A program made the position numbers and the translations under genes. Below are positions 5,178 through 46,889 of a stretch of DNA of 48,034 nt, piece by piece (position 1 is the first letter of the stretch; every line of letters begins with the position of its first letter). The notes beneath the pieces were generated by a model. The model saw only the letters and a list, made by a program, of their open reading frames with translations. It ran no database searches and was not told where the DNA came from. Origin of the DNA: Brevinematales bacterium (GTDB taxonomy: Bacteria > Spirochaetota > Brevinematia > Brevinematales > GWF1-51-8); contig JABLXV010000053.1 of assembly GCA_013177895.1 (NCBI GenBank), forward strand, positions 1-48,034, given 5' to 3'.

Positions 5178-6706
5178 AGACCGCCTCCCGGTACTGCCGG
5201 TATCAGGTTCGGCAGGATATGCGCGATATATTGCGTCCGATCGACCAGATCGGCGGCGATTTTTTCGAACGACCAGACGATACTCTGGGGATATACCCCG
5301 AGGATCACGACGATCAGCGCGAGGACGAGTACCGGTAACGCGGTAACAAACGCGCCCTTAGCGTCGAATTTCTGAATGTCAACTCCGTCGGGCTTCACGA
5401 AGAACGAATGTCCCACCCGTAGCAGGTAAATTCCCTCGAAGATAGCGCCGAGCAGTACCGCCCCGAACGCGATTTTACCGAATATGTCGCCGGTCAGCAG
5501 GGTCTGGAAGAGCTCGAGCTTGCCCCAGAACCCGAAGAACATCGGCACTCCCATAATCGACAGCGACAGCGCGATAAACGCCCCCGCGAGGAACGGGAAC
5601 CTTCGCCCGATACCCTTCATATCCTTCCAGTTACCTTTATCCGACGACTTCGAGAAGAACCCGGCGATAAAGAGGAGACCCGGTTTCGCGACCGTATGCG
5701 ACACGATCAGGTAAATACCCGCGAGCGCGCCGTTCTGCCCGCCCGACGCGAACGCCATCAGGATCAGCCCGAACTGCGCGACTGTCGAGAAGCCGAGCAT
5801 CTTCTTGAGGTTCTGCTCGTTCAGCGCGGCGATCTCCCCGATCAATACGCTCGCTATCGCTACTATAAATATGATGACGCTGAGTTTCGGGAAAATGCCG
5901 TAGAAAACACTCCCGCCCTGTATGAGGGTGAAGATGATCCGGCCGAATACCCCCACTGCGGCGATTCCGCCGATACCCGCGATCGCGGCAGTCAGCGAGG
6001 ACGGCGTGCCCTCGTAGACCTCCGGCACCCATGTATTGAACGGGAACTGCTCGGTCTCGAAAAAGAGCGCGAATAACAGGCCCAGCCCTACGATAAACCC
6101 GAACGACGGGTTCAGTACGTCGGACGTGCGCGACGCGAGATGCGCGATATTGAGCGTACCGGTCGCGGAGTAAAGAAGCCCTATCGCGGCAAGCATCAGC
6201 ATCGACACCGCGCCCGACATCACGATATATTTGAAGCCGCCGCGCGAACCCATCCGCATACTCCCGGACGAGGCCATACCCACTACGGCGATACTGCCTA
6301 TTTCCATCATCACGAATAGGTTGAACAGGTCGGACGTCATCAGCATCGCTATCGACGAGAAGATGAACAGGTTGAACAGCAGGTGGAAGTAGGTCGTCCG
6401 GGACTTGTTCATATCGTTTATCTCGATTAGCAGCGCGATCAGGTAGATCACCAGTCCCGCGCAGAGGGCTAACGGCCCGAGGTACAGTACGATCCCATAC
6501 GGGGCGGGCCATCCGCCCATCTGGATGACGCTCCCGCCGGTTAAAAGGGTCGGCATGAGCAGGGTAATACCTATCGCCAATCCGATGACGTAAGTAACCA
6601 CATTCAGGAGCTTCCCGAAGCGTTTATGGATAATCGTCCCGAGCGGGAGAAGAAACGCCGCGATCAGCGGCAGTATGAGAAACAGAGTGGGATTTAAACC
6701 TTTCAC
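5174..6706 (-). CDS. MrpD/NuoN-type antiporter-like subunit with altered TM7 lysine
   Basis: A 510-residue polytopic protein of the proton-translocating antiporter-like family. The TM5 glutamate is present (E135 in FVMMEIGSIA). The TM7 site, where NuoL, NuoM, NuoN and MrpD normally have a lysine before the FPF/VPF turn, reads FFETEQFPFNTW, so the Lys position is Glu217. The downstream VPEVYEGTPSSLTAAIAG motif is intact, so the protein is not degraded. This change should affect the proton or sodium path of this subunit. It overlaps its neighbours by four bases on both sides. Confidence 0.87.
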   Translation of the reverse strand: MKGLNPTLFLILPLIAAFLLPLGTIIHKRFGKLLNVVTYVIGLAIGITLLMPTLLTGGSVIQMGGWPAPYGIVLYLGPLALCAGLVIYLIALLIEINDMNKSRTTYFHLLFNLFIFSSIAMLMTSDLFNLFVMMEIGSIAVVGMASSGSMRMGSRGGFKYIVMSGAVSMLMLAAIGLLYSATGTLNIAHLASRTSDVLNPSFGFIVGLGLLFALFFETEQFPFNTWVPEVYEGTPSSLTAAIAGIGGIAAVGVFGRIIFTLIQGGSVFYGIFPKLSVIIFIVAIASVLIGEIAALNEQNLKKMLGFSTVAQFGLILMAFASGGQNGALAGIYLIVSHTVAKPGLLFIAGFFSKSSDKGNWKDMKGIGRRFPFLAGAFIALSLSIMGVPMFFGFWGKLELFQTLLTGDIFGKIAFGAVLLGAIFEGIYLLRVGHSFFVKPDGVDIQKFDAKGAFVTALPVLVLALIVVILGVYPQSIVWSFEKIAADLVDRTQYIAHILPNLIPAVPGGGL

Positions 6707-17359: not shown

Positions 17360-17411
17360 TCCTTAGTTGAGGGTATCGTGCGGGGTGTCCGCGCATTTAA
17401 TGGAGGGTCGT

Positions 17412-18065
17412 ATGGGTGATTTTAAGGTCGAGAAGGTAACTGACGTACCGGGGTATTCCGCGAAGCTGACGAAACGGAAAAAGTTCCTCGCGCGTGTGGC
17501 ATTGGCAATTCTTTCATCTTTAGTTATCGGAGCAAATCTAGGATGCTCTCCAATGGGAGGAATACCAATACCAGTGCCTCCAACACCTAACGTAAATATC
17601 TATATCAAACTCTCCACCGTCGATAATGCTCAAGATCTGTATGAACCCGTGGGAGGAGTTACCAACGCGATTTACGCGGTCGGTAACTTCGGAGGATTGA
17701 AAGTTAATGGAGTAGCTATTCCTGTTTGGGATCCATCCTCTGCAGTCGCTCAACTGACGAGAGTCAGCGCCGACATGTTCAAGCTGGAACTTCTCAACTA
17801 TTTGACGAACAATGCCTCACTTTCATTTAGGTTCGTGAACGGATCTCCTGGTTTCGGCGGAACATGGACGAACGAGGAGCAGGAATTCACCGATGATGGT
17901 TCAACGTTTGAAGGTGTTTCCAACCGCACCTTAACTATATTTCCAGCTTATTCCTATTGGAATTTTACCAACATCTATATGACGAATGATGTCGTGTCGA
18001 ATATCGGCGGTACCGCGATGGGGTGTATCACCCATTGGAAGGGTGTAACCTCCACTATGCCTTAA
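17412..18065 (+). CDS. Lipoprotein with family leader but a different body
   Basis: The product, about 217 residues, starts at 17412; GGAGGG lies four bases upstream, and the identical arrangement precedes the gene at 18126. The leader MGDFKVEKVTDVPGYSAK is followed by TKRKK, a hydrophobic stretch and a lipobox ending IGANLGC at Cys45. The body (PVPPTPNVNIYIKLSTVDNAQ onward) does not resemble the next three genes, although it is also Asn/Thr-rich. The N-terminal region before the hydrophobic stretch is unusually long for a lipoprotein signal. Function unknown; an envelope-anchored binding protein is the simplest reading. Confidence 0.75.
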   Translation: MGDFKVEKVTDVPGYSAKLTKRKKFLARVALAILSSLVIGANLGCSPMGGIPIPVPPTPNVNIYIKLSTVDNAQDLYEPVGGVTNAIYAVGNFGGLKVNGVAIPVWDPSSAVAQLTRVSADMFKLELLNYLTNNASLSFRFVNGSPGFGGTWTNEEQEFTDDGSTFEGVSNRTLTIFPAYSYWNFTNIYMTNDVVSNIGGTAMGCITHWKGVTSTMP

Positions 18066-18125
18066 CACACTGAGTATTGGAGAAGCTGGTAATATTCACA
18101 ATGTAGTTCTATTCAGGAGGGTCAT

Positions 18126-19238
18126 ATGGGTGATTTTAAAGTCGAGAAGGTAACTGACGTACCGGGGTATTCCGCGAAGCAGACGAAACGGAAAAAGTCC
18201 CTCGTGCGGGTGGCATTGGCTATTCTTTCCGGGTTGATTATCGGGAGTGTCGGAGGGTGTGTTTTCATTGATGATGTGCCCACTGGAGGTACTTATAACC
18301 CATTAAAAATCAAGTTCGATTTCTCCGGGACGTTCAATCCCGAAACCTACGGAGTTCTTCCGTTCCTTGTCGGCGACATCAATGAAGTAATCATGGGCAC
18401 AAGCGATTGGGGATGGACCGGCAATATCAACGCGGCCGGTGTAAAGGGTGCGGATGCCGTTGCGATGCTGACTAAGGAATATGACGGTACGTGGTCGATC
18501 ATCTTAGCTCCCACCAACAATAATATCGCATGGGGTATCGCGTTCAGGGCTGCAAACTATCTGACCAGTGAATGGACTGCCGTTACTAATGACTTCTGGA
18601 ATAATATCGGCATGCAGTTGACCGGTGTTAACAACGAGCAGATCTTCATCTCCAACAATATGATTATCGGGGTTCAGAAACCCGTGGGTGTTTTAACTAA
18701 TTTTAGTAATACATGGGGAAGTATTAGCTTCGACGGATTTTATGTTTCTTGGGATCATAAGACTGTTACTATAGACGTCGGCGCTCATGGCGGATGGTCA
18801 ATATGCACTGGGGATCCTATTGATATGGATATAAATGTCACAATAATATGGACAAACATTCCCGCATGGAACCACAATCCCACGAAGATAGTAGGCTGGC
18901 TGCCTTTGCTCGGCTTGGTATCCAATACCAATACCGGCGCGACCACTGCTGTTATTCCTACTATCACCGGCGGCGCGGGATTCCTGCACACCAACGGTGT
19001 CGCTACATGGGATCCTAAGCAAGGTAATCCTGTAACTATCAATGCGGGATTAAAAACCGCGTATGTTACCTTCACGGTTCCTTCCGGTTCCGCCCAGACC
19101 TTCGAGTTCAAGATGGCGAATACCAACGGTTGGGATTCCGGCGAAGAAGCCAACAACCAGTTTTGTGTAATGCCATTGGGTGTTACCAGTTATACCCAGA
19201 CTGTGAATTTTTCGAAGTCGAGTGTTTATTTACCGTAA
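18126..19238 (+). CDS. Lipoprotein, tandem family member 2
   Basis: A 370-residue predicted lipoprotein. It has the same leader as the gene at 17412 (MGDFKVEKVTDVPGYSAK) and a lipobox IGSVGGC. The body begins LKIKFDFSGTFNPE and contains two similar halves of beta-rich sequence. It ends with a segment AYVTFTVPSGSAQTFEFKM...NTNGWDSGEE that looks like an immunoglobulin- or carbohydrate-binding-like sheet. Aromatic residues (Trp, Tyr) are frequent, which suits glycan binding, but no family is certain. Its body is very similar to the next two genes, at DNA level too. Confidence 0.75.
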   Translation: MGDFKVEKVTDVPGYSAKQTKRKKSLVRVALAILSGLIIGSVGGCVFIDDVPTGGTYNPLKIKFDFSGTFNPETYGVLPFLVGDINEVIMGTSDWGWTGNINAAGVKGADAVAMLTKEYDGTWSIILAPTNNNIAWGIAFRAANYLTSEWTAVTNDFWNNIGMQLTGVNNEQIFISNNMIIGVQKPVGVLTNFSNTWGSISFDGFYVSWDHKTVTIDVGAHGGWSICTGDPIDMDINVTIIWTNIPAWNHNPTKIVGWLPLLGLVSNTNTGATTAVIPTITGGAGFLHTNGVATWDPKQGNPVTINAGLKTAYVTFTVPSGSAQTFEFKMANTNGWDSGEEANNQFCVMPLGVTSYTQTVNFSKSSVYLP

Positions 19239-21340
19239 TAAAGGATGGTTGTATATGAAAAGTTTTAAAAAGATTGGAGTCGTTTTTGCTGCTTTGTTCA
19301 CATTGATTTTGGGAGCTTGCCCTCCCCTTCTTCCTCCGGAGAATAATGAGCCTATCCCGCTCAAGATCAAGTTCGATTTCTCCGGGACGTTCAATCCCGA
19401 AGCCTATAATGCCATCCCTTTCATTCTCGGGGATGTAAACGAAGTGATTATGGGCGCGGGCGATTGGGATCAGGCTGATGATGCTGGCGGTATTACCGCC
19501 TCTGGCATCGGCGGCGTCCAGTTGCTGACCAAGGAAGCGGACGGCACATGGTCGATCACCTTAGCTCCCACCAACAATAATATCGCATGGGGTATCGCGT
19601 TTAAGGCTGCAAACTATTATACTGAATTGTGGTCAGCTACTACCAATGACTTCTGGAATAGTATCGGCACGCAGTTGACCGGTGTTAACAACGAGCAGAT
19701 CTTCATCTCCAACGGAATGATCATCGCGGTTCAGAAGCCCGGCGGGACATTATCTAATGTATCCGGCGCTTTGGTATATGACGGCTTCACCGTAAGCGGG
19801 GATCAGAAGTCTGTTACTATCGACGTCGGTGCCCATGGCGGATGGTCGGTATCCAGCTTAGATGGTTTTACTAATGATATAAGCGTCACAATAATCTGGA
19901 CAAACATTCCCGCATGGAATCATAATCCCTCGAAGGAGTGGGGTTGGCTGCCTTTGCTCGGCTTGGTATCCAATACCAATACCGGCGCGACCACTGCTGT
20001 TATTCCGACTATTACCGGCGGCGCGGGATTCCTGCACACCAACGGTGTCGCTACATGGGATCCTAAACAAGGTAATCTGGTTACTCTTGATCCTGTTCTG
20101 AAGACCGCTTATGTAACCTTCACGGTTCCTACCGGTTCCGCCAGAACTTTCGAGTTCAAAATGGCGAATACCAATGGTTGGGATTCCGGCGAAGAAGCCA
20201 ACAACCAGGCAGGTATCCTTCCTATTGGCGGTGGTGTTTATACCCAGATAGTGAATTTTTCAAAAGCAGCTGATTATTTACCATAGAGTTAGGAGGGTTG
20301 TATGAGTGATTTTAAGGTCGAGAAGGTATTTGACGTACCGGGGTATTCCGCGAAGCAGACGAAACGGAAAAAGTCCCTCGCGCGGGTGGCATTGGCTATT
20401 CTTTCCGGGTTGATTATCGGAAGTACCGGGGGATGTGATAGAATTGGAATTGGCGGTGATGTTGCTTTTTATCCGCCACCTATTAAAATCAAGTTCGATT
20501 TCTCCGGGACGTTCAATCCCGAAACCTACGGTGTTCTTCCGTTCCTTGTCGGCGACATCAATGAAGTAATCATGGGCGCAGGCGATTGGGGATGGACCGG
20601 CAATATTAACGAGGCCGGTGTAAAGGGTGCGGATGCTGTTTCGATGCTGACCAAGGAAGCGGACGGAACATGGTCGATCACCTTAGCACCTACCAACAAT
20701 ACTGTTGCATGGGGTATCGCGTTCAAGGCTGCGAACTATCTGACCAGCGAATGGACTGCTGTTACCAATGACTTCTGGAATAATATCGGCGCGCAGTTGA
20801 CCGGTGTTAACAACGAGCAGATCTTCATCTCCAACGGTGTGATCATCGCGGTTCAGAAGCCCAGCGGAACATTATCTAATGTATCCGGCGCGTTGGTTTA
20901 TGACGGCTTCACCGTCAGCGCGGATCAGAAGACTGTTACTATCGACGTCGGCGCTCATGGCGGATGGTCGGTACGCGCTCCCGGCGTTACCACCAACGAT
21001 ATTGCCGTAACCATTATGTGGAGTGGAATTCCTTCATGGAACCAGAATCCCACGAAGACCTTAGGATGGCTCCCTCTTCTTGGATTAGTTTCTAACACCA
21101 ATACCGGCGCGACCTTGGTTGTTATTCCTACTGTCACCGGTGGCGCTGGCTTCCTGCACACCAACGGTGTTGCTACATGGGATCCCAAGCAAGGTAATCT
21201 GGTTACTCTTAATGCTGGTCTGAAGACCGCTTATGTAACCTTTACGGTTCCTGCCGGTTCCGCCAGAACCTTCGAGTTCAAGATGGCGAATACCAATGGT
21301 TGGGATTCCGGCGAAGAAGCAACAACCAGGCTGGTATCCT
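18300..21340 (+). repeat. Three tandem direct repeats of about 1 kb
   Basis: The bodies of three adjacent genes (about 18300-19190, 19360-20260 and 20485-21400) share long identical runs, such as the stretches beginning AAGTTCGATTTCTCC and ACCGGCGCGACC. They are recent duplications, prone to recombination, slippage and assembly collapse. Confidence 0.85.
19255..20286 (+). CDS. Lipoprotein, tandem family member 3, with a different leader
   Basis: A 343-residue product from the ATG at 19255. An upstream ATG at 19222 overlaps the previous gene and lacks a good ribosome site. The leader here is an ordinary lipoprotein signal (MKSFKKIGVVFAALFTL, lipobox ILGAC), not the long family leader of members 1, 2 and 4. 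The body is nearly the same as in members 2 and 4 (KIKFDFSGTFNPE..., NTNGWDSGEEANN, ending VNFSKAADYLP). Leader and body have therefore been exchanged independently within the cluster. Function unknown. Confidence 0.75.
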   Translation: MKSFKKIGVVFAALFTLILGACPPLLPPENNEPIPLKIKFDFSGTFNPEAYNAIPFILGDVNEVIMGAGDWDQADDAGGITASGIGGVQLLTKEADGTWSITLAPTNNNIAWGIAFKAANYYTELWSATTNDFWNSIGTQLTGVNNEQIFISNGMIIAVQKPGGTLSNVSGALVYDGFTVSGDQKSVTIDVGAHGGWSVSSLDGFTNDISVTIIWTNIPAWNHNPSKEWGWLPLLGLVSNTNTGATTAVIPTITGGAGFLHTNGVATWDPKQGNLVTLDPVLKTAYVTFTVPTGSARTFEFKMANTNGWDSGEEANNQAGILPIGGGVYTQIVNFSKAADYLP

Positions 21341-21375
21341 TCCTGTTGGTGGCGCGGCTTACACTCAGGCCGTAA
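20302..21375 (+). CDS. Lipoprotein, tandem family member 4, frameshifted near the C-terminus
   Basis: A 357-residue frame with the long leader (MSDFKVEKVFDVPGYSAK, lipobox IGSTGGC) and the common body. It follows member 2 closely until WDSGEEA at about residue 340. Members 2 and 3 have GAAGAAGCCAACAACC there; this copy has GAAGAAGCAACAACC, one C short between 21320 and 21321. The frame then reads TTRLVSFLL and stops at 21375. Restoring the base gives NNQAGILPVGGAAYTQAV and a normal ending in NLP with a stop at 21405-21407. This is a recent mutation, phase variation or a sequencing error; the lost part is about 27 residues. Confidence 0.75.
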   Translation: MSDFKVEKVFDVPGYSAKQTKRKKSLARVALAILSGLIIGSTGGCDRIGIGGDVAFYPPPIKIKFDFSGTFNPETYGVLPFLVGDINEVIMGAGDWGWTGNINEAGVKGADAVSMLTKEADGTWSITLAPTNNTVAWGIAFKAANYLTSEWTAVTNDFWNNIGAQLTGVNNEQIFISNGVIIAVQKPSGTLSNVSGALVYDGFTVSADQKTVTIDVGAHGGWSVRAPGVTTNDIAVTIMWSGIPSWNQNPTKTLGWLPLLGLVSNTNTGATLVVIPTVTGGAGFLHTNGVATWDPKQGNLVTLNAGLKTAYVTFTVPAGSARTFEFKMANTNGWDSGEEATTRLVSFLLVARLTLRP

Positions 21376-21414
21376 CGTTCAGTCTCGCTCCTGTTAATCT
21401 TCCGTAAAAAAAGG

Positions 21415-21454
21415 CTTAAATATGAGGAAGGCGTAAGCCTTCCTCATATTTAAG
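21415..21454. terminator. Perfect 18-bp hairpin with GTAA loop
   Basis: CTTAAATATGAGGAAGGC (21415-21432) pairs with 21437-21454 without mismatch around GTAA. Seven A directly upstream (21406-21412) would make it a T-tailed terminator on the minus strand. On the plus strand it is followed only by TTTT. It is most easily read as the end of the lipoprotein transcript, but it also covers part of the AAGGAG of the gene at 21463, so it may limit translation of that gene. Confidence 0.65.
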
Positions 21455-21462
21455 GAGTTTTG

Positions 21463-21741
21463 ATGCCGAACGATAAAAACGATTTCACGGTCGAGCCGGT
21501 CAAGCAGAATCCCATAGATCATTCTGCGGACACCGGCGATAAAAACACCCCGCCGCAAATCCCCCTCGCGGGAGTCCCGGCTATCCCACGGGATACCCAA
21601 CCTGTCCCGGAACCGATCCCCGGCGTAACTGTAACCGATGAGAATGGAAAGCAGCAATTCATCCCGTTACCCGGCATCCCGGTAGTCAACCCGAAGTTCC
21701 GCGATAATATGGTCAAGCCGAAGAAGCCCCCCGCCCGATAA
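21463..21741 (+). CDS. Small Pro-rich hydrophilic protein, unknown
   Basis: A 92-residue, proline-rich product without membrane segment or signal. It contains repeated short motifs (PLAGVPAIP, PEPIPGVTV, PLPGIPVV) and ends KPKKPPAR. Its start (MPNDKNDFTVEPVKQ) is faintly like the DFKVEKV leader of the lipoproteins before it. The ATG at 21463 has AAGGAG five bases upstream. Codon use agrees with neighbouring genes, which supports a real gene. Probably disordered; function unknown. Confidence 0.6.
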   Translation: MPNDKNDFTVEPVKQNPIDHSADTGDKNTPPQIPLAGVPAIPRDTQPVPEPIPGVTVTDENGKQQFIPLPGIPVVNPKFRDNMVKPKKPPAR

Positions 21742-25432: not shown

Positions 25433-25538
25433 GCGGGAGAAGGGGATATTTTAGGAATATTTACTGATAATGGGTTAATAATTATTTTTTGAAATAACTC
25501 ATGTGCATTCTAGAGAGAAGTCTGTCACATTAAACATT

Positions 25539-27350
25539 TTACCACCTTAACAAATAGAATGAACCCGATTCGCCGCCCATATCGTCATCCAAGTTCGCTC
25601 CCGCGATAATACTTTTCCCGTCAGCGGAGATCGCGACACTGATACCGAAATTATCACCCGCCGCGCCGTCCTGCGCTAAGAATTTGTTCATATCCCATTC
25701 CGAACCATTCCAATGAAAACAATAAACCGAACCGGAATCGAGACCTTTATCATCATCATAGTTTGCCCCGGTGACAATCGTTCCTCCGTCAGCCGAAACC
25801 GCGACGCTGATACCGAAATTGTCACCCGCCGCGCCGTCCTGCGCTATAAATTTATTCGTCTCCCAACTCCATCCGTTATAATGAAATCTATAGACCGACC
25901 CAGAATGGTTACCCTTATCGTCATCGCCATAAGCCCCGGCCACAAGCGTATTCCCGTCAGCCGAAACCCCCACACTTATACCGAATTCATCTAAATCAAG
26001 TCCATCGTACGGTATAAATTTATTCGTCTCCCATCCCAACCCGTTATAATGAAACCGATATATCGAACCGGAATTAGCTCCCATATCGTCATCTCCGAAT
26101 GCACCAACGACAATCGTATTCCCGTCGGGGGACATTGCCAGACTAAAACCAAAATAATCTGCACCGCTATAGTCATAGGCGTAAAATTTATTTGTCTCCC
26201 AAGTCGAATCGTTCCAATGAAAACAATATACCGAACCGGAGTACCCATTATCTCCGTAGGCTCCCGCAAGTACCGTATTCCCGTTAGATGATACCGCTAC
26301 GCAATACCCCACGTTATCATAAAAATCCCCGTCTATTGTAATAAATTTATTCGTCTCCCATTCAGACCCGTTCCAATGAAAACGATAGAGAGTTCCTATG
26401 CCAAGATCCCCCGGCGCTCCCGAGATAATCGTATTCCCGTCCGCTGAAATAGCGGTACTATATCCAAAACTTTCACCCATAACACCATCGGGCGCTACGA
26501 ATTTATTCATCATCCAACTTGAACCGCTTTTATGGTAATAATAGACCGCACCCCCGTCTGCTCTTGTATCATCATCATGATATGCACCAGCTACCATGCA
26601 ATTTCCATCTGCTGAAATCGAGGTGCTAAATCCGAAATAATCGCCGGTTAATCCGTCCGGCGCGATAAACTTTTCCTGGGACACGTACAATACCCTTGAT
26701 CCGGCAGTTTCGTTAGTCTTACTGTCGCTGCTTATAACACGAGCCTTCAGCATATTTACACCCAAAATTAAATTTTCCAAAATCGACCAATTCGTTGTTC
26801 CTGTTACATTCTTCCAAATACCGCCATTTAACTGTATCTGTACTTTAGCCACAGTATAGGGTAAATCCACCGATGAAGTCCCCTCTATCAGGATGTTCGA
26901 TATATTCATACAGCTTTTATTGGTCGGGGATAAGATAATAATCGATGGGATACTGATATACTCTACGATAACCAATACAGGAATACTTTTATTACCCGCG
27001 TTATCCTCAGCATAAATATAGTTTGTGTGAATTCCGAATTGTTCGACTGAAATATTAGCTGACCAATTACTCGCAGTCAGGGCGGCGGAAAAATATTCCC
27101 CATTGTCGGTTTTTAAATAGACTCTTTTTATACCGGAATTCCCCGAATCGCTGACTATACCGCTGATCTGGTAATTCGACCCTACTTCCTGATAATTGGA
27201 TGGCGAACTGATAATTACAACCGGGGGAGTTATATCATCCTTTTTATCATTGATTAGGTTTACCAGATCACTAGGTTCGATGAGTTCTTGAAATAAGGTA
27301 CATCCCAAGAAAAATAATACCGAAAGTAGAGTAATAAATATCTTCTTCAT
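25539..27350 (-). CDS. Lipoprotein with Ig-like and seven FG-GAP repeats (beta-propeller)
   Basis: A 603-residue lipoprotein; the signal peptide ends in the lipobox FFLGC (Cys17). Residues about 40-225 hold two Ig-like domains with the motifs TPPVVIISSPSNYQEVGS and IPSIIILSPTNKSCMN. Residues about 228-603 hold seven FG-GAP-type repeats of some 54 residues, each with DxFG, 'S-x-D-G-N-T-I', GAxxDDD, GSVYxFHWNG and W(E/D)xN. Seven copies are the number needed for a closed integrin-alpha-type propeller. The protein is probably surface-exposed and adhesive or glycan-binding; Asp-rich loops suggest calcium. The gene is more AT-rich than the tdk and argD genes beside it and has its own promoter. Confidence 0.83.
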   Translation of the reverse strand: MKKIFITLLSVLFFLGCTLFQELIEPSDLVNLINDKKDDITPPVVIISSPSNYQEVGSNYQISGIVSDSGNSGIKRVYLKTDNGEYFSAALTASNWSANISVEQFGIHTNYIYAEDNAGNKSIPVLVIVEYISIPSIIILSPTNKSCMNISNILIEGTSSVDLPYTVAKVQIQLNGGIWKNVTGTTNWSILENLILGVNMLKARVISSDSKTNETAGSRVLYVSQEKFIAPDGLTGDYFGFSTSISADGNCMVAGAYHDDDTRADGGAVYYYHKSGSSWMMNKFVAPDGVMGESFGYSTAISADGNTIISGAPGDLGIGTLYRFHWNGSEWETNKFITIDGDFYDNVGYCVAVSSNGNTVLAGAYGDNGYSGSVYCFHWNDSTWETNKFYAYDYSGADYFGFSLAMSPDGNTIVVGAFGDDDMGANSGSIYRFHYNGLGWETNKFIPYDGLDLDEFGISVGVSADGNTLVAGAYGDDDKGNHSGSVYRFHYNGWSWETNKFIAQDGAAGDNFGISVAVSADGGTIVTGANYDDDKGLDSGSVYCFHWNGSEWDMNKFLAQDGAAGDNFGISVAISADGKSIIAGANLDDDMGGESGSFYLLRW

Positions 27351-27393
27351 CTACACCCTCTCTATCATAAATTAATTTTTTCATTCGAAATAC

Positions 27394-27422
27394 ATTATTT
27401 ATGCATTCTACATTATTGTCAA
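27394..27422 (-). promoter_or_regulatory. Promoter of the FG-GAP lipoprotein
   Basis: TTGACA (27422-27417), 17 bases, AATAAT (27399-27394) on the minus strand, with GAGAGGG before the ATG. Confidence 0.65.
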
Positions 27423-27451
27423 GAATATAATTTAGCGTATTCGTTTTCTCC

Positions 27452-27480
27452 TTGACGGGATTCCTTTTCCGGTATATAGT
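27452..27480 (+). promoter_or_regulatory. Promoter of tdk
   Basis: TTGACG (27452-27457), 17 bases, TATAGT (27475-27480). The ATG at 27500 follows GGAGG by four bases. It is divergent from the promoter at 27394-27422. Confidence 0.65.
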
Positions 27481-27499
27481 AATCCATTCAGGAGGAACT

Positions 27500-28066
27500 A
27501 TGCCCGAACCGTCACTCACCCTCATCCTCGGCCCCATGTTCGGCGGGAAAAGCACCGAGCTCCTTCGGCGGATCGAACGCGCCACGCTCGCCAAGCGCGG
27601 CGTCATCGTCATTAAGCCGAAGCTCGACGACCGTTACTCCGCGAACGAGGTGGTCGCGCACTCGGGGACCAAGGTACCCTGCGAGGCGCTCCCCGACACG
27701 CTCGATTTCGAGGACTTCGTCCGTTCGCATGGGAATCTTGACGGGATAGACGGCGTTTTTATCGACGAGGCGAACTTTTTCAACGGGCTGCACCTGTTCT
27801 GCTTCGGGCTGATGAAAATGGGAATCAATATCACGATATCCGCGCTCAGCGGGGATTTCCGGCTCGGCCTGATCGGCGAGACCCATACCCTGCTCCCGCT
27901 CGCCACCGAGATTGTGCTCCTCCCGGCGGTGTCGCCGTTAAGCGGCGCCGACGCGTACTATAACTCGTATTCCGGACCGACTGTCGATGGCAATATCGCG
28001 GTCGGGGGAAAGGAATGCTACAAGACCCTGACGTTCGGCGAATGGGTCGCGCGGAACAAGAAATAA
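27500..28066 (+). CDS. tdk: Thymidine kinase lacking the zinc-binding cysteines
   Basis: A 188-residue type II thymidine kinase that phosphorylates thymidine using ATP. The start at 27500 follows GGAGGAACT; the frame upstream to 27452 covers the promoter. The Walker A motif is G11PMFGGKST, the catalytic acid is E90 in FIDEANFF, and the loop GDFRLGLIGE is present. Type II enzymes normally have a C-terminal zinc ribbon made of two CxxC pairs. Here the region reads LPAVSPLSGADAYYNS and later GGKECYKTLTFGEW, with no CxxC at all. The nucleotide-binding core looks intact, so it may still act without zinc. It is convergent with the AT-rich island, with only one base between the two stops. Confidence 0.85.
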   Translation: MPEPSLTLILGPMFGGKSTELLRRIERATLAKRGVIVIKPKLDDRYSANEVVAHSGTKVPCEALPDTLDFEDFVRSHGNLDGIDGVFIDEANFFNGLHLFCFGLMKMGINITISALSGDFRLGLIGETHTLLPLATEIVLLPAVSPLSGADAYYNSYSGPTVDGNIAVGGKECYKTLTFGEWVARNKK

Positions 28067-28067
28067 A

Positions 28068-28859
28068 CTATTTTATTCCTAACTTATCAAATAGAATTCT
28101 ATTTCGTTTTTTCGCATCTTTTAACATTTTATCAAATGAAATAATTTCTACATTTGCTCGATATTCATCATTATATCCAATATAACCTAAATTATCTGGG
28201 GTTTTATGCAATGATGCACGTTTTGCATATTTTTCTATATTATTTGTAATATCACATATAATATAAACAAAAAATAACGTTGAATTTGTAGTTATTATTT
28301 GTCTGCCATCTTTATTCATTGCAGTTCCAGCATTTATTTCTTCAATGTATTCATATATTTGTCCTATTGGATTTGAATCATCATTATATTCTTTTCTTTC
28401 AGGTTTTTTTAATTCAATTATTACCACAGAATTAAAAGGTGTTTCATATCCTTCAGTATAAGTTACCTTCTTATTGAAAATTGTAATATCAGGTCTTATT
28501 TTACTTTCTGATTCTATTAATGGAAACTTTTTTAATTCTAGATCAGAGGCTAAATAAAGATGGTAAGCTAATCTTTCATCAATTAACCAAAGATTTTCAT
28601 TTTCTATTTCAATTTCATCACTTGTATATTTCATAGGAAAAATAATATTATGAATTACTTTTTCATCATAATATTTATCTTCACGATTTCTTTTTAAGCT
28701 ATTTTCAAATAGGTCAAGAACTAATTTTCTAAAAATAATATATTGTGCCAAATTTGATTTTCCAATTTCATTAATTTCATTTAAATATGTATTGTATTCC
28801 TCTTTAGCTTTTTCTAGTTCATTAGTATTTGTAATATTCATTTCTAATATTTTTTTCAC
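28068..28859 (-). CDS. PD-(D/E)xK nuclease-like protein, probably the C-terminal part of the gene before it
   Basis: A 263-residue frame with a nuclease pattern: IRPD124ITIFNKK, then VVIIE149LK151KPER and NPIGQIYEYIEEI with a conserved-looking Gln167. This D...ExK...Q arrangement is that of PD-(D/E)xK restriction-type enzymes. A coiled-coil-like Glu/Lys stretch precedes it. Reading the same frame upstream without a stop gives LDIKLHEIKHELEIEAKSEVKKILE, which joins the ATPase gene at an A6 run (28918-28923) by a -1 shift. So this ATG is probably not the true start, and the ancestral protein would be one chain of about 664 residues. About three quarters of the bases are A or T, unlike all flanking genes. 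Nuclease activity is inference. Confidence 0.7.
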   Translation of the reverse strand: MKKILEMNITNTNELEKAKEEYNTYLNEINEIGKSNLAQYIIFRKLVLDLFENSLKRNREDKYYDEKVIHNIIFPMKYTSDEIEIENENLWLIDERLAYHLYLASDLELKKFPLIESESKIRPDITIFNKKVTYTEGYETPFNSVVIIELKKPERKEYNDDSNPIGQIYEYIEEINAGTAMNKDGRQIITTNSTLFFVYIICDITNNIEKYAKRASLHKTPDNLGYIGYNDEYRANVEIISFDKMLKDAKKRNRILFDKLGIK

Positions 28860-28891
28860 TTCGCTCTTTGCTTCTATTTCTAATTCATGTT

Positions 28892-30061
28892 TTATTTCAT
28901 GTAGTTTAATATCAAGATTTTTTCGCTGGTATCAAGAGCAATTTTACTTATTTTATCTTCTGCTTTTTTTAGTAAAAATCTATATTCTGGGTTATCGGAA
29001 ATATAATCTTGAACTTTTCTATATGCTTTTTCTTTTAAAGGTGTTATATATTTTTCTAATTGCCTTTCTATTTCTTTTGTAATTTCATTGATTATTTCTT
29101 TTTCATTTATATTATTAAAGTTCAATTCATCCTCACTTTTATTAATATTAAAATCTGTTCTATTTGATTTTACCGTCTCATCCAGAAACGAGCTGGTTAC
29201 ATAAGTTAATGTATAGAAACTACTATCATCAGATTCATAAAATTTTGAAGATAATAAAGGAAGGCATTTTTGTAATTGAATAAATTTTACAACTCTCTCA
29301 TTTGCGCATAAAAATATTTTATGTTCGCTTCTTTCCACAACTACTAATTTATAAATTGCGATATTAAATTCTTGCTCTTTAAAAGTAATTCTTGAATTAT
29401 AACTCTCAGAATTAATCTCTTCTATAAATACCTTATTTAAATTAAAAACTTCATTGGTAGTCATATCAATAACCTCAATCCTTGGACATTTATTAGTAAT
29501 AAAATATATAAGGATATGTTCAATTATTTTGTTTGCAATAATATCAGATCCTTTTGGAAGATAATCTTTATATGTAGTTATATAATCAATAAGTGAAATT
29601 CTGGTAATATTTTTTGCTAAAGATACTTCTTCATTTTTATGATTTTCTATTCCTTCATCAGTTAATATAAAATCAAAACTTCTATTAAAATATTTTCCGT
29701 TGTGTTTGTAGTTACTTGAGATATTTACTTTTTTAAAGGCTTTTAACCACATAAATCGTCCAATTCCTTTTCCACCTATTCTTGATTTTTTCACAGAATC
29801 TGATGTTAAAAAAGATTCATAATTTATTTCAGTAAAACCAACTCCATTATCTTCAATTATAAAACTATTAATATTCATAAGATTACTTTCATCTGAATAT
29901 AATCCTTCTTCTCTTTTTATGTATACCTTTACAAATCCATTCTTTTCATCAGCTTCTTCAATAGCTTGAATCGAATTAATAACAGCTTCAAATAACGGTT
30001 GTAAACAATCTGTCTTGTTTAAAGATTCATTATTAACGCGATTAACTACATTTACCTTCAT
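28892..30061 (-). CDS. GHKL-type ATPase, probably the N-terminal part of an ATPase-nuclease
   Basis: A 389-residue frame with a clear Hsp90/MutL/histidine-kinase-type ATP site: motif N at E25-AVINSIQA, motif G1 at D71NGVG and motif G2 at GG97KGIG. Its distribution and length resemble the MutL/MORC-like GHKL proteins linked to DNA processing and restriction-like systems. A coiled-coil-like region (about 325-380) closes the frame. The last eight residues (ILILNYMK) come after the A6 run and look like a frameshift tail, because the other frame continues straight into the nuclease-like protein. It has a consensus promoter. The gene is AT-rich and was probably acquired by transfer. Confidence 0.75.
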   Translation of the reverse strand: MKVNVVNRVNNESLNKTDCLQPLFEAVINSIQAIEEADEKNGFVKVYIKREEGLYSDESNLMNINSFIIEDNGVGFTEINYESFLTSDSVKKSRIGGKGIGRFMWLKAFKKVNISSNYKHNGKYFNRSFDFILTDEGIENHKNEEVSLAKNITRISLIDYITTYKDYLPKGSDIIANKIIEHILIYFITNKCPRIEVIDMTTNEVFNLNKVFIEEINSESYNSRITFKEQEFNIAIYKLVVVERSEHKIFLCANERVVKFIQLQKCLPLLSSKFYESDDSSFYTLTYVTSSFLDETVKSNRTDFNINKSEDELNFNNINEKEIINEITKEIERQLEKYITPLKEKAYRKVQDYISDNPEYRFLLKKAEDKISKIALDTSEKILILNYMK

Positions 30062-30082
30062 TTTGTTTCCTTTTTTTTAATA

Positions 30083-30110
30083 ATTATATCGAAAAAGAAT
30101 TTTTTGTCAA
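30083..30110 (-). promoter_or_regulatory. Promoter of the GHKL ATPase island
   Basis: TTGACA (30110-30105), 16 bases, TATAAT (30088-30083) on the minus strand: both boxes match the consensus exactly. AAGGA precedes the ATG. Confidence 0.75.
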
Positions 30111-30138
30111 GGTATTTCAATAAATACGAATATTTCAA

Positions 30139-30900
30139 CTAAAATAAAAACGGTATCAGCGCCTTCCGCTTCACGGGATAGTCCGGGAAGTTCGACTTGT
30201 ACCATTTATGGTGCGAGAACGCGCGCGGGGCGAGGTTCGCCAATGTCCAGAACAGGAACGTCCATCCCGCTATCGACCATGTCATCACCGCCCACCCCAT
30301 CCATATAATGATCTCCCCGAAGTAGTTCGGGCATGTCACTAGTTCGTACAATCCCCCTCGCGGAACCGTGTACCGATCGGGATGCTCGCGTTTCAGGCGC
30401 AGGATGACCGAGTCCGCCCAACGGTTGATGATATACCCCGCGATAAAGAGCGCCGCCCCTATGATAAAACGCGGGTCGACGAACCATCCCGCGGAATAGC
30501 TCTCCCCGGATACCGGCGCGAAAAGCCACCGCCCCTGAAGGTAGGTGTTCAGCATATTGAATATCATCCCGAACAGGACGACCGCCAGCGGCATCTTTTT
30601 ACTCCGGTTCAGCAGGAACGGATAGATAAAGGCGCGCTCGGCGTAATGGGTCTCCCAGAGGAGGAGGAGCACGACCGGCACGAGGTCATGCCGGGTGCCG
30701 GTAATGAAGTAGAACAGCATCATCAACGCCGCCGGGGATTCCATCAGGATCCAGCCGAGACGGTTTCCGAGCGCGGGACCCCATCCGGGACGGACGTAAC
30801 GGCCGTAGGGCGCGGAGAAGAAGAACAACATGACGAACACGACCGCCCCGATCCCGATAAACCCGTAGGCGATCCCATGATACCACATCATCTCGCTCAT
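30139..30900 (-). CDS. Steroid 5-alpha-reductase-like membrane enzyme
   Basis: A 253-residue polytopic membrane protein of the 3-oxo-5-alpha-steroid 4-dehydrogenase (SRD5A, DUF1295-related) family. The C-terminal half has the marks of that group: CPNYFGEIIIWMGWAVMTWS, LANLAPRAFSHHKWYKS and FPDYPVKRKALIPFLF as the last residues. Such enzymes reduce double bonds of lipids with NADPH; in bacteria the substrate is generally unknown. GGAGG lies four bases before the ATG. It follows the SpoIIE phosphatase gene by ten bases and is probably co-transcribed with it. Confidence 0.85.
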   Translation of the reverse strand: MSEMMWYHGIAYGFIGIGAVVFVMLFFFSAPYGRYVRPGWGPALGNRLGWILMESPAALMMLFYFITGTRHDLVPVVLLLLWETHYAERAFIYPFLLNRSKKMPLAVVLFGMIFNMLNTYLQGRWLFAPVSGESYSAGWFVDPRFIIGAALFIAGYIINRWADSVILRLKREHPDRYTVPRGGLYELVTCPNYFGEIIIWMGWAVMTWSIAGWTFLFWTLANLAPRAFSHHKWYKSNFPDYPVKRKALIPFLF

Positions 30901-46010: not shown

Positions 46011-46889
46011 TTATCTTTTTATTATATATTTTTCTACATATTTACAGGGAAGGTAACTCAGTTTCGCCTTCCTCAGCCCGGGGATGCCCATATCCTGTTC
46101 CCGGTTGACATACTCGTACTTCCCCAGGAGGACGTCCCGCGCGAAAAGGAAATTGATCGCCTGGTAACTCCCCTCGTATGAGGTATCCGCTTTCTCGAAG
46201 TGGACGACGCAGGTGTCCGGGGTGATGCGTTCCCCGAACGTAAACGCCACCATACTGCCTTCGACGAATAACACGCCGCTATCGAGGTTCATTTCCCCGA
46301 AGTTCCGGAGAAGCTCCCTGACCGCGTGATACTCATGGTCATAGGCAGGATCGGCGGCTCCTTTGCGTTCTATCCATCGGCGGCAGAGATTGAGACAATC
46401 CTCGAAATCGGAGGTCTCGTAAGGACGGAAGCTGAAGTCGTAATTCGACATAAACTTCCTGATAAATCCCCTTTTCCCGTCGTAATGACGCCCTTTCAGG
46501 TAGGCAAGGTCTTCGACCCGGTAGATATAATCGAAATTATCCCTATCCGGCTCCGCGGAATAGCCGTGCCCGTCTAAAATCTCCGCATGTTCCATAGGGG
46601 CGCGCCGCACCACCTGCGGCCACCCCGTTCCCTCCGCGAAATCGAAACACGCCGCATAGGCGGCGGGTATATCGTTCACGCCGAGAGGGGGAAAGAACCG
46701 TTTATGATTTTCATACTCGGTCTTTATCAGAATTCCGCCGTCCCACTCCGAAAACTCGACGGGACGGAATTTGGCCCATATATAAAGGTTGCCGAATAAT
46801 AATTCTGAAACCCCCGTAGGATTATCCGAGACCAGCTTATCGAAAAAGCGTTTATCTCTCCATTCGAGGGGCTTCCAATCCCGAATCAT
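46011..46889 (-). CDS. DUF2156-family protein (GNAT-like)
   Basis: A 292-residue cytoplasmic protein of the DUF2156 / phosphatidylglycerol lysyltransferase C-terminal-like family, which has a doubled acetyltransferase-like fold. Marks are LLFGNLYIWAKF in the N-terminal half, the RHYDGKRGFIRKFMSNYDF stretch (about 135-155), and C-terminal FEKADTSYEGSYQAINFLFARD with EYVNREQDMGIPGLRKAK. No membrane helix is present, unlike MprF. Many such stand-alone proteins are uncharacterised. It sits between rpsO (35 bases) and pnp (47 bases). Confidence 0.83.
   Translation of the reverse strand: MIRDWKPLEWRDKRFFDKLVSDNPTGVSELLFGNLYIWAKFRPVEFSEWDGGILIKTEYENHKRFFPPLGVNDIPAAYAACFDFAEGTGWPQVVRRAPMEHAEILDGHGYSAEPDRDNFDYIYRVEDLAYLKGRHYDGKRGFIRKFMSNYDFSFRPYETSDFEDCLNLCRRWIERKGAADPAYDHEYHAVRELLRNFGEMNLDSGVLFVEGSMVAFTFGERITPDTCVVHFEKADTSYEGSYQAINFLFARDVLLGKYEYVNREQDMGIPGLRKAKLSYLPCKYVEKYIIKR

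Follow-up and report, generated by a model that had tools for sequence, protein, structure and literature searches.

The 48,034-nucleotide stretch of Brevinematales DNA analysed here, referred to as the window, contained a single-gene insert encoding a GHKL ATPase joined to a PD-(D/E)xK-like nuclease. The gene probably represents a laterally gained, single-gene anti-phage protein of the paraMORC3/VcSduA type (GHKL-Shedu, type I-D) with about 664 residues. Its frame was broken once in the coiled-coil linker, and it is likely a recent pseudogene. The 5' part (28892..30061, minus strand) was an ORF of 389 amino acids with an ATG start, covering the GHKL ATPase, an S5-like transducer and the beginning of the coiled coil. 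Residues 1-381 followed the ancestral frame and were succeeded by an out-of-frame tail of eight residues. The stop was located 26 bases past a run of six adenines (A6; 28918-28923, minus strand), identified as the frame-joining site from the sequence and from the alignment of the bridge to relatives. A -1 shift at this run led stop-free into the nuclease frame down to 28068 and yielded a joined chain of 664 residues, confirming the frames and coordinates given by an earlier sequence-only reading of this DNA. The 3' part (28068..28931, minus strand) comprised the remaining coiled coil and the C-terminal PD-(D/E)xK-like nuclease domain, with 287 codons without a stop from 28931 to the stop at 28068. 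GTG at 28859 was the only near-cognate start in this frame and would yield 263 amino acids. Over 2000 trials with Markov sequences of the same composition, stretches of 860 nt contained a longest open frame of 44 codons in the median and 102 at most; the 283-codon open path was therefore not attributable to chance. A sigma-70-type consensus promoter, TTGACA-16-TATAAT, was located within the insert (30083..30110, minus strand) and, as read previously, matched at 12/12 positions. The ribosome-binding-like motif AAGGA (30068..30072, minus strand) preceded the ATG.

Related loci were obtained from a genome scan, of which the best 80 of 216 confirmed loci were retained, and from a viral-contig scan with 29 loci. 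Both halves were covered by a single one-frame tblastn match spanning the junction in 109/109 loci, a set biased toward unbroken copies by the choice of the best 80 of the 216 genomic loci. The window locus is therefore one gene that was broken once here. Two of the 109 loci held one in-frame stop each, away from the junction. Nearly all intact members were 649-709 amino acids long, the typical one-frame size being about 670 residues with the bridge included. In tblastn searches with the halves and the joined chain, the latter aligned end to end with relatives, providing the unbroken homologues that had been sought for it. The bridging residues EKNLDIKLHEIKHELE aligned with a Spirosoma relative at equal length, residue for residue and without gaps. 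A natural two-gene organisation of the family, which would have contradicted the sequence-only reading, was ruled out, as none of the 109 loci was split. The sole exception seen was a C-terminal fragment in genome G036, which looks truncated.

Relatives were located on plasmids, chromosomes and viral contigs, the plasmids including those of Spirosoma, Hymenobacter, Acinetobacter, Vibrio, Rhodococcus and others (tblastn). In most cases their annotation was a single 'ATP-binding protein' or a hypothetical protein. In the tree, the window gene grouped with a viral contig (support 93, moderate) on a long branch, surrounded by members from many phyla. The sample of the phylum (393 genomes) contained four clear members: two intact genes (G244, G360), one without the N-terminal half (G036) and the window gene. 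A scan of viral contigs with the nuclease half alone returned no relative; relatives there were detected with the family alignment. The search of a phage collection gave one weak match, and a Vibrio fluvialis relative had no DNA-level match in E. coli genomes. Several relatives adjoined type I restriction genes, Shedu, CBASS-like genes, Abi genes or integrases. Such neighbourhoods, seen without the rate in a control set, are no more than suggestive of a defence context.

Some further loci were observed in this survey. The C-terminal half in G036 (L022, 6203-7168) begins in the coiled coil, and a small gene pair ahead of it (5527-6051) resembles a toxin-antitoxin module. A locus from an Erysipelotrichaceae MAG (L094, 5001-6953) has an in-frame TGA at the conserved Trp of the family (W105), either a lesion or a TGA read as Trp. 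Three divergent relatives with 24-26% identity (L025 in G003:C77, L026 in G209, L027 in G137) share the GHKL-nuclease architecture and apparently form a sister family; a distant paralogue is present within the same genus.

The gene is an alien insertion. Its approximate limits were 28067..30142, giving about 2.07 kb between a methyltransferase-like gene (30139-30900) and tdk (27452-28066). In the same-genus genome G001, these two flanking genes were separated by a few bases and the site was empty; in G003 of the same genus, they were close together and the GHKL-nuclease gene was absent there. The GC content of the insert was 24% versus about 52% in the surrounding sequence, in agreement with the earlier description of an AT-rich region between GC-rich genes. 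Third-position GC was 9-14% versus about 80% in flanking genes. By codon position, the two halves had GC fractions of 0.34/0.26/0.14 and 0.38/0.23/0.10, and host genes about 0.56/0.40/0.79. Neither an integrase nor a terminator was detected in the insert, and it had no convincing terminal repeats. By composition and synteny, the window gene is laterally acquired, and the empty-site comparison shows that it came in by itself, bringing its own promoter, at a site flanked by two ordinary genes. One-frame relatives, empty sites and GC content together back the proposal, already made from the letters of the window, of one laterally transferred protein with a GHKL ATPase and a PD-(D/E)xK-like nuclease.

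Other differences from the same-genus genomes were seen along the window. Another insert, roughly 2 kb long (25452-27451), carries an ORF for a lipoprotein-like protein of 603 amino acids (25539-27350, minus strand) and lies between argD and tdk. These genes are adjacent in G001, and in the window two single-gene gains flank tdk. At 17367-21735, a gene matching G001 over 206/322 residues seems truncated, and three ORFs at that truncation (18126-21375) were unmatched in the syntenic G001 contig. The window gene at 46011-46889 is open, whereas the match to its homologue in G003 (L029/L151, G003:C31) is spread over two frames; this may come from a broken frame in G003 or from open frames that overlap.

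Both halves retained their motifs, as the sequence-only reading had claimed. In the alignment of relatives, the N-box E25/N29 and the motifs D71xGxG75 and G96xxGxG101 were conserved; D71, G73, G75, G96, G99 and G101 were invariant in 100 intact relatives and E25 was kept in 99/100. The AlphaFold2 model of the N-terminal half (pLDDT 90.9, pTM 0.88) matched Hsp90/TRAP1, GyrB, Topo VI-B and SMCHD1 in Foldseek with E-values of 1e-12 to 1e-10. Judged from this model, the N-terminal half is a GHKL domain plus an S5-like transducer. In the nuclease half, D525, E550 and K552 were invariant in the 100 intact relatives, corresponding to D124, E149 and K151 of the 263-residue ORF. E467 was likewise invariant and position 496 held E or D. 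In a set of 63 sequences, D124, E149, K151 and Q167 (numbering of the 263-residue ORF) were invariant. The C-terminal model (pLDDT 87.3) showed alternating strands and helices, and the D...ExK signature in an alpha/beta core that characterises the PD-(D/E)xK superfamily was present. Foldseek was weakly supportive, with weak matches to McrC, NucS, Can2 and NucC.

Scans with Pfam, NCBIfam, PADLOC and PHROGs assigned no named family beyond weak HATPase matches and one unnamed PHROG, and no PDB chain was convincingly matched in a sequence search. The gene agrees with two published descriptions. The paraMORC3 family was described as GHKL-S5 proteins with a C-terminal E-D-ExK domain, often standalone and sporadically distributed (Iyer, Abhiman and Aravind 2008; PMC2292703). 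Compared with that description, the window gene shares the N-terminal GHKL ATPase and S5 domain, supported by motifs and fold, the C-terminal E-D-ExK residues (E467/E496, D525, E550xK552) and the sporadic, often standalone occurrence. The single continuous chain was found in all 109 related loci but not in the window copy, which is split by the frameshift, so the window gene is a broken copy of a paraMORC3 member and not an intact member. VcSduA of the Vibrio cholerae WASA lineage, a GHKL-Shedu protein of type I-D, carries a GHKL ATPase, a middle domain and a PD-(D/E)xK nuclease on one chain and protects both its native host and E. coli against phages (PMC12137116). Infected cultures were protected at every phage dose tested, and the mutations E27A and K557A abolished defence, demonstrating that both active sites are required (PMC12137116). 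The window gene has the same domain order, and the positions of its catalytic Glu and Lys nearly coincide with those of VcSduA (E25 and K552 versus E27 and K557), whereas the window copy is frame-broken, alien and AT-rich. The likeness runs through architecture, motif positions and Vibrio relatives. E27 and K557 occurred at exactly those positions in four relatives, from Vibrio albus, Vibrio lentus, Aliagarivorans and a viral contig (L091, L096, L074 and L116, the last being the viral contig). Because the architecture fits, E25 and K552 correspond, and positions 27 and 557 are exact in the Vibrio, Aliagarivorans and viral relatives, the window gene can be placed with fair confidence in the VcSduA/paraMORC3 type. 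The earlier and broader label of a restriction-like MutL/MORC system was narrowed to this type, for which anti-phage activity has been published.

Other known systems were more distant. The Pfam model of the Shedu nuclease, SduA_C (PF14082), matched nothing among the window proteins, the members of the family alignment or the proteins of the same genome, and no Shedu structure was among the 50 Foldseek matches listed for the C-terminal model. In hhalign, the D...ExKxP...Q core aligned to SduA_C with the catalytic residues in register (probability 51%, E 1.5e-4). The window gene has a GHKL ATPase at its N-terminus, and any link to canonical Shedu is remote. McrC, NucS and other PD-(D/E)xK nucleases were the best yet weak structural matches (McrC with E 0.0098 and probability 0.87; none with E < 0.001) and their partner domains differ from those of the window gene. 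MutL/MORC, Hsp90, gyrase B and Topo VI-B share the GHKL and S5 fold (Foldseek E about 1e-12 to 1e-10) but are separate families, and the window gene is without a mismatch-repair or topoisomerase partner.

The break, read from one draft assembly of one strain, is most likely a real inactivating mutation. The contig has about 28 genes syntenic with G001, one of them 1112 codons long, and their frames are unbroken relative to G001, which makes pervasive sequencing error unlikely; a single error is still compatible. Both halves were otherwise intact over 664 codons, a state also compatible with an assembly error or with continued function. A sequencing or assembly error, with the organism carrying an ordinary intact GHKL-nuclease defence gene, is a minority reading that deserves some weight: the assembly is a draft of 112 contigs, the break falls at a homopolymer, no other lesion occurs in the gene and all motifs are kept. 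It is countered by the unbroken syntenic genes, which indicate that the assembly is not generally error-prone, and by the presence of nine A runs of at least six in the gene (three of them A7), just one of which is at the break. With so many runs, the idea that the A6 is special was rejected, although the sequence-only reading had placed it correctly. The nuclease half could also be re-initiated at GTG 28859 and reassemble with the ATPase half into a functional pair. Both frames are long and open, the GTG is 33 bases past the first stop and within reach of translational coupling, and G036 encodes a lone C-terminal half. This two-protein function is nevertheless improbable, as such a split occurred in 0/109 relatives (best 80 of 216 genomic plus 29 viral), no clear ribosome-binding site precedes the GTG, the split falls within the conserved linker and the G036 fragment, lacking any N-terminal half, looks truncated.

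The remaining explanations concern the A6 itself. The earlier reading had left mutation and slippage side by side; mutation proved the better option. A programmed -1 frameshift or slippage during transcription could act at the A6 and give both a short ATPase and the full protein of 664 amino acids; this would fit the zero-frame AAA codon and a -1 frame that opens exactly here. A run of six adenines is short for slippage by the polymerase. In the context GAA AAA ATC, the zero frame holds no canonical X XXY YYZ heptamer and allows no two-tRNA slip, and the 88 nt downstream had a predicted fold of only -4.3 kcal/mol. When relatives were compared for A6 or A7 in this stretch, as the earlier reading had suggested, A6 was present in only 5 of 100 and a longer run in none. 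As neither a canonical heptamer, a substantial downstream structure nor a conserved A run was present, and no relative conserves or uses the feature, programmed slippage is disfavoured and very unlikely. A heptamer A AAA AAA at 28970 was rejected as a slip site; a shift there hits a stop before 28931. Defence genes are often phase-variable, and a single lesion in an otherwise intact sequence is what a contingency tract in its off state would leave. Usual phase-variable tracts are longer than A6, no long tract occurred at this site in the 100 relatives examined, and the A7 runs elsewhere in the gene remained in frame; we regard a currently switched-off, phase-variable gene as highly unlikely. 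None of two-protein function, programmed slippage and phase variation had positive support. Similarly doubtful is a functional break, in which the A6 would let a free GHKL ATPase arise alongside or alternating with the full ATPase-nuclease, as a brake or an on/off switch.

In intact relatives, the GHKL-S5 module would probably act as an ATP-dimerised clamp on DNA or on a phage-induced ligand. The clamped dimer may license the C-terminal nuclease, which would then cut phage DNA. For the window copy, we infer that translation of the message from the consensus promoter would produce the ATPase half (389 amino acids) only. With no good start for the nuclease half, this copy most likely provides no defence.

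Taken together, the window gene probably belongs to a known and widespread defence family, as an ordinary member that was gained laterally and has probably been inactivated, and does not represent a new kind of system. It would gain in importance only if the shift turned out to have a function. The patchy single-gene GHKL-nuclease family is now placed in one more lineage, and the breakage of the window gene fits the gain and loss of defence genes.
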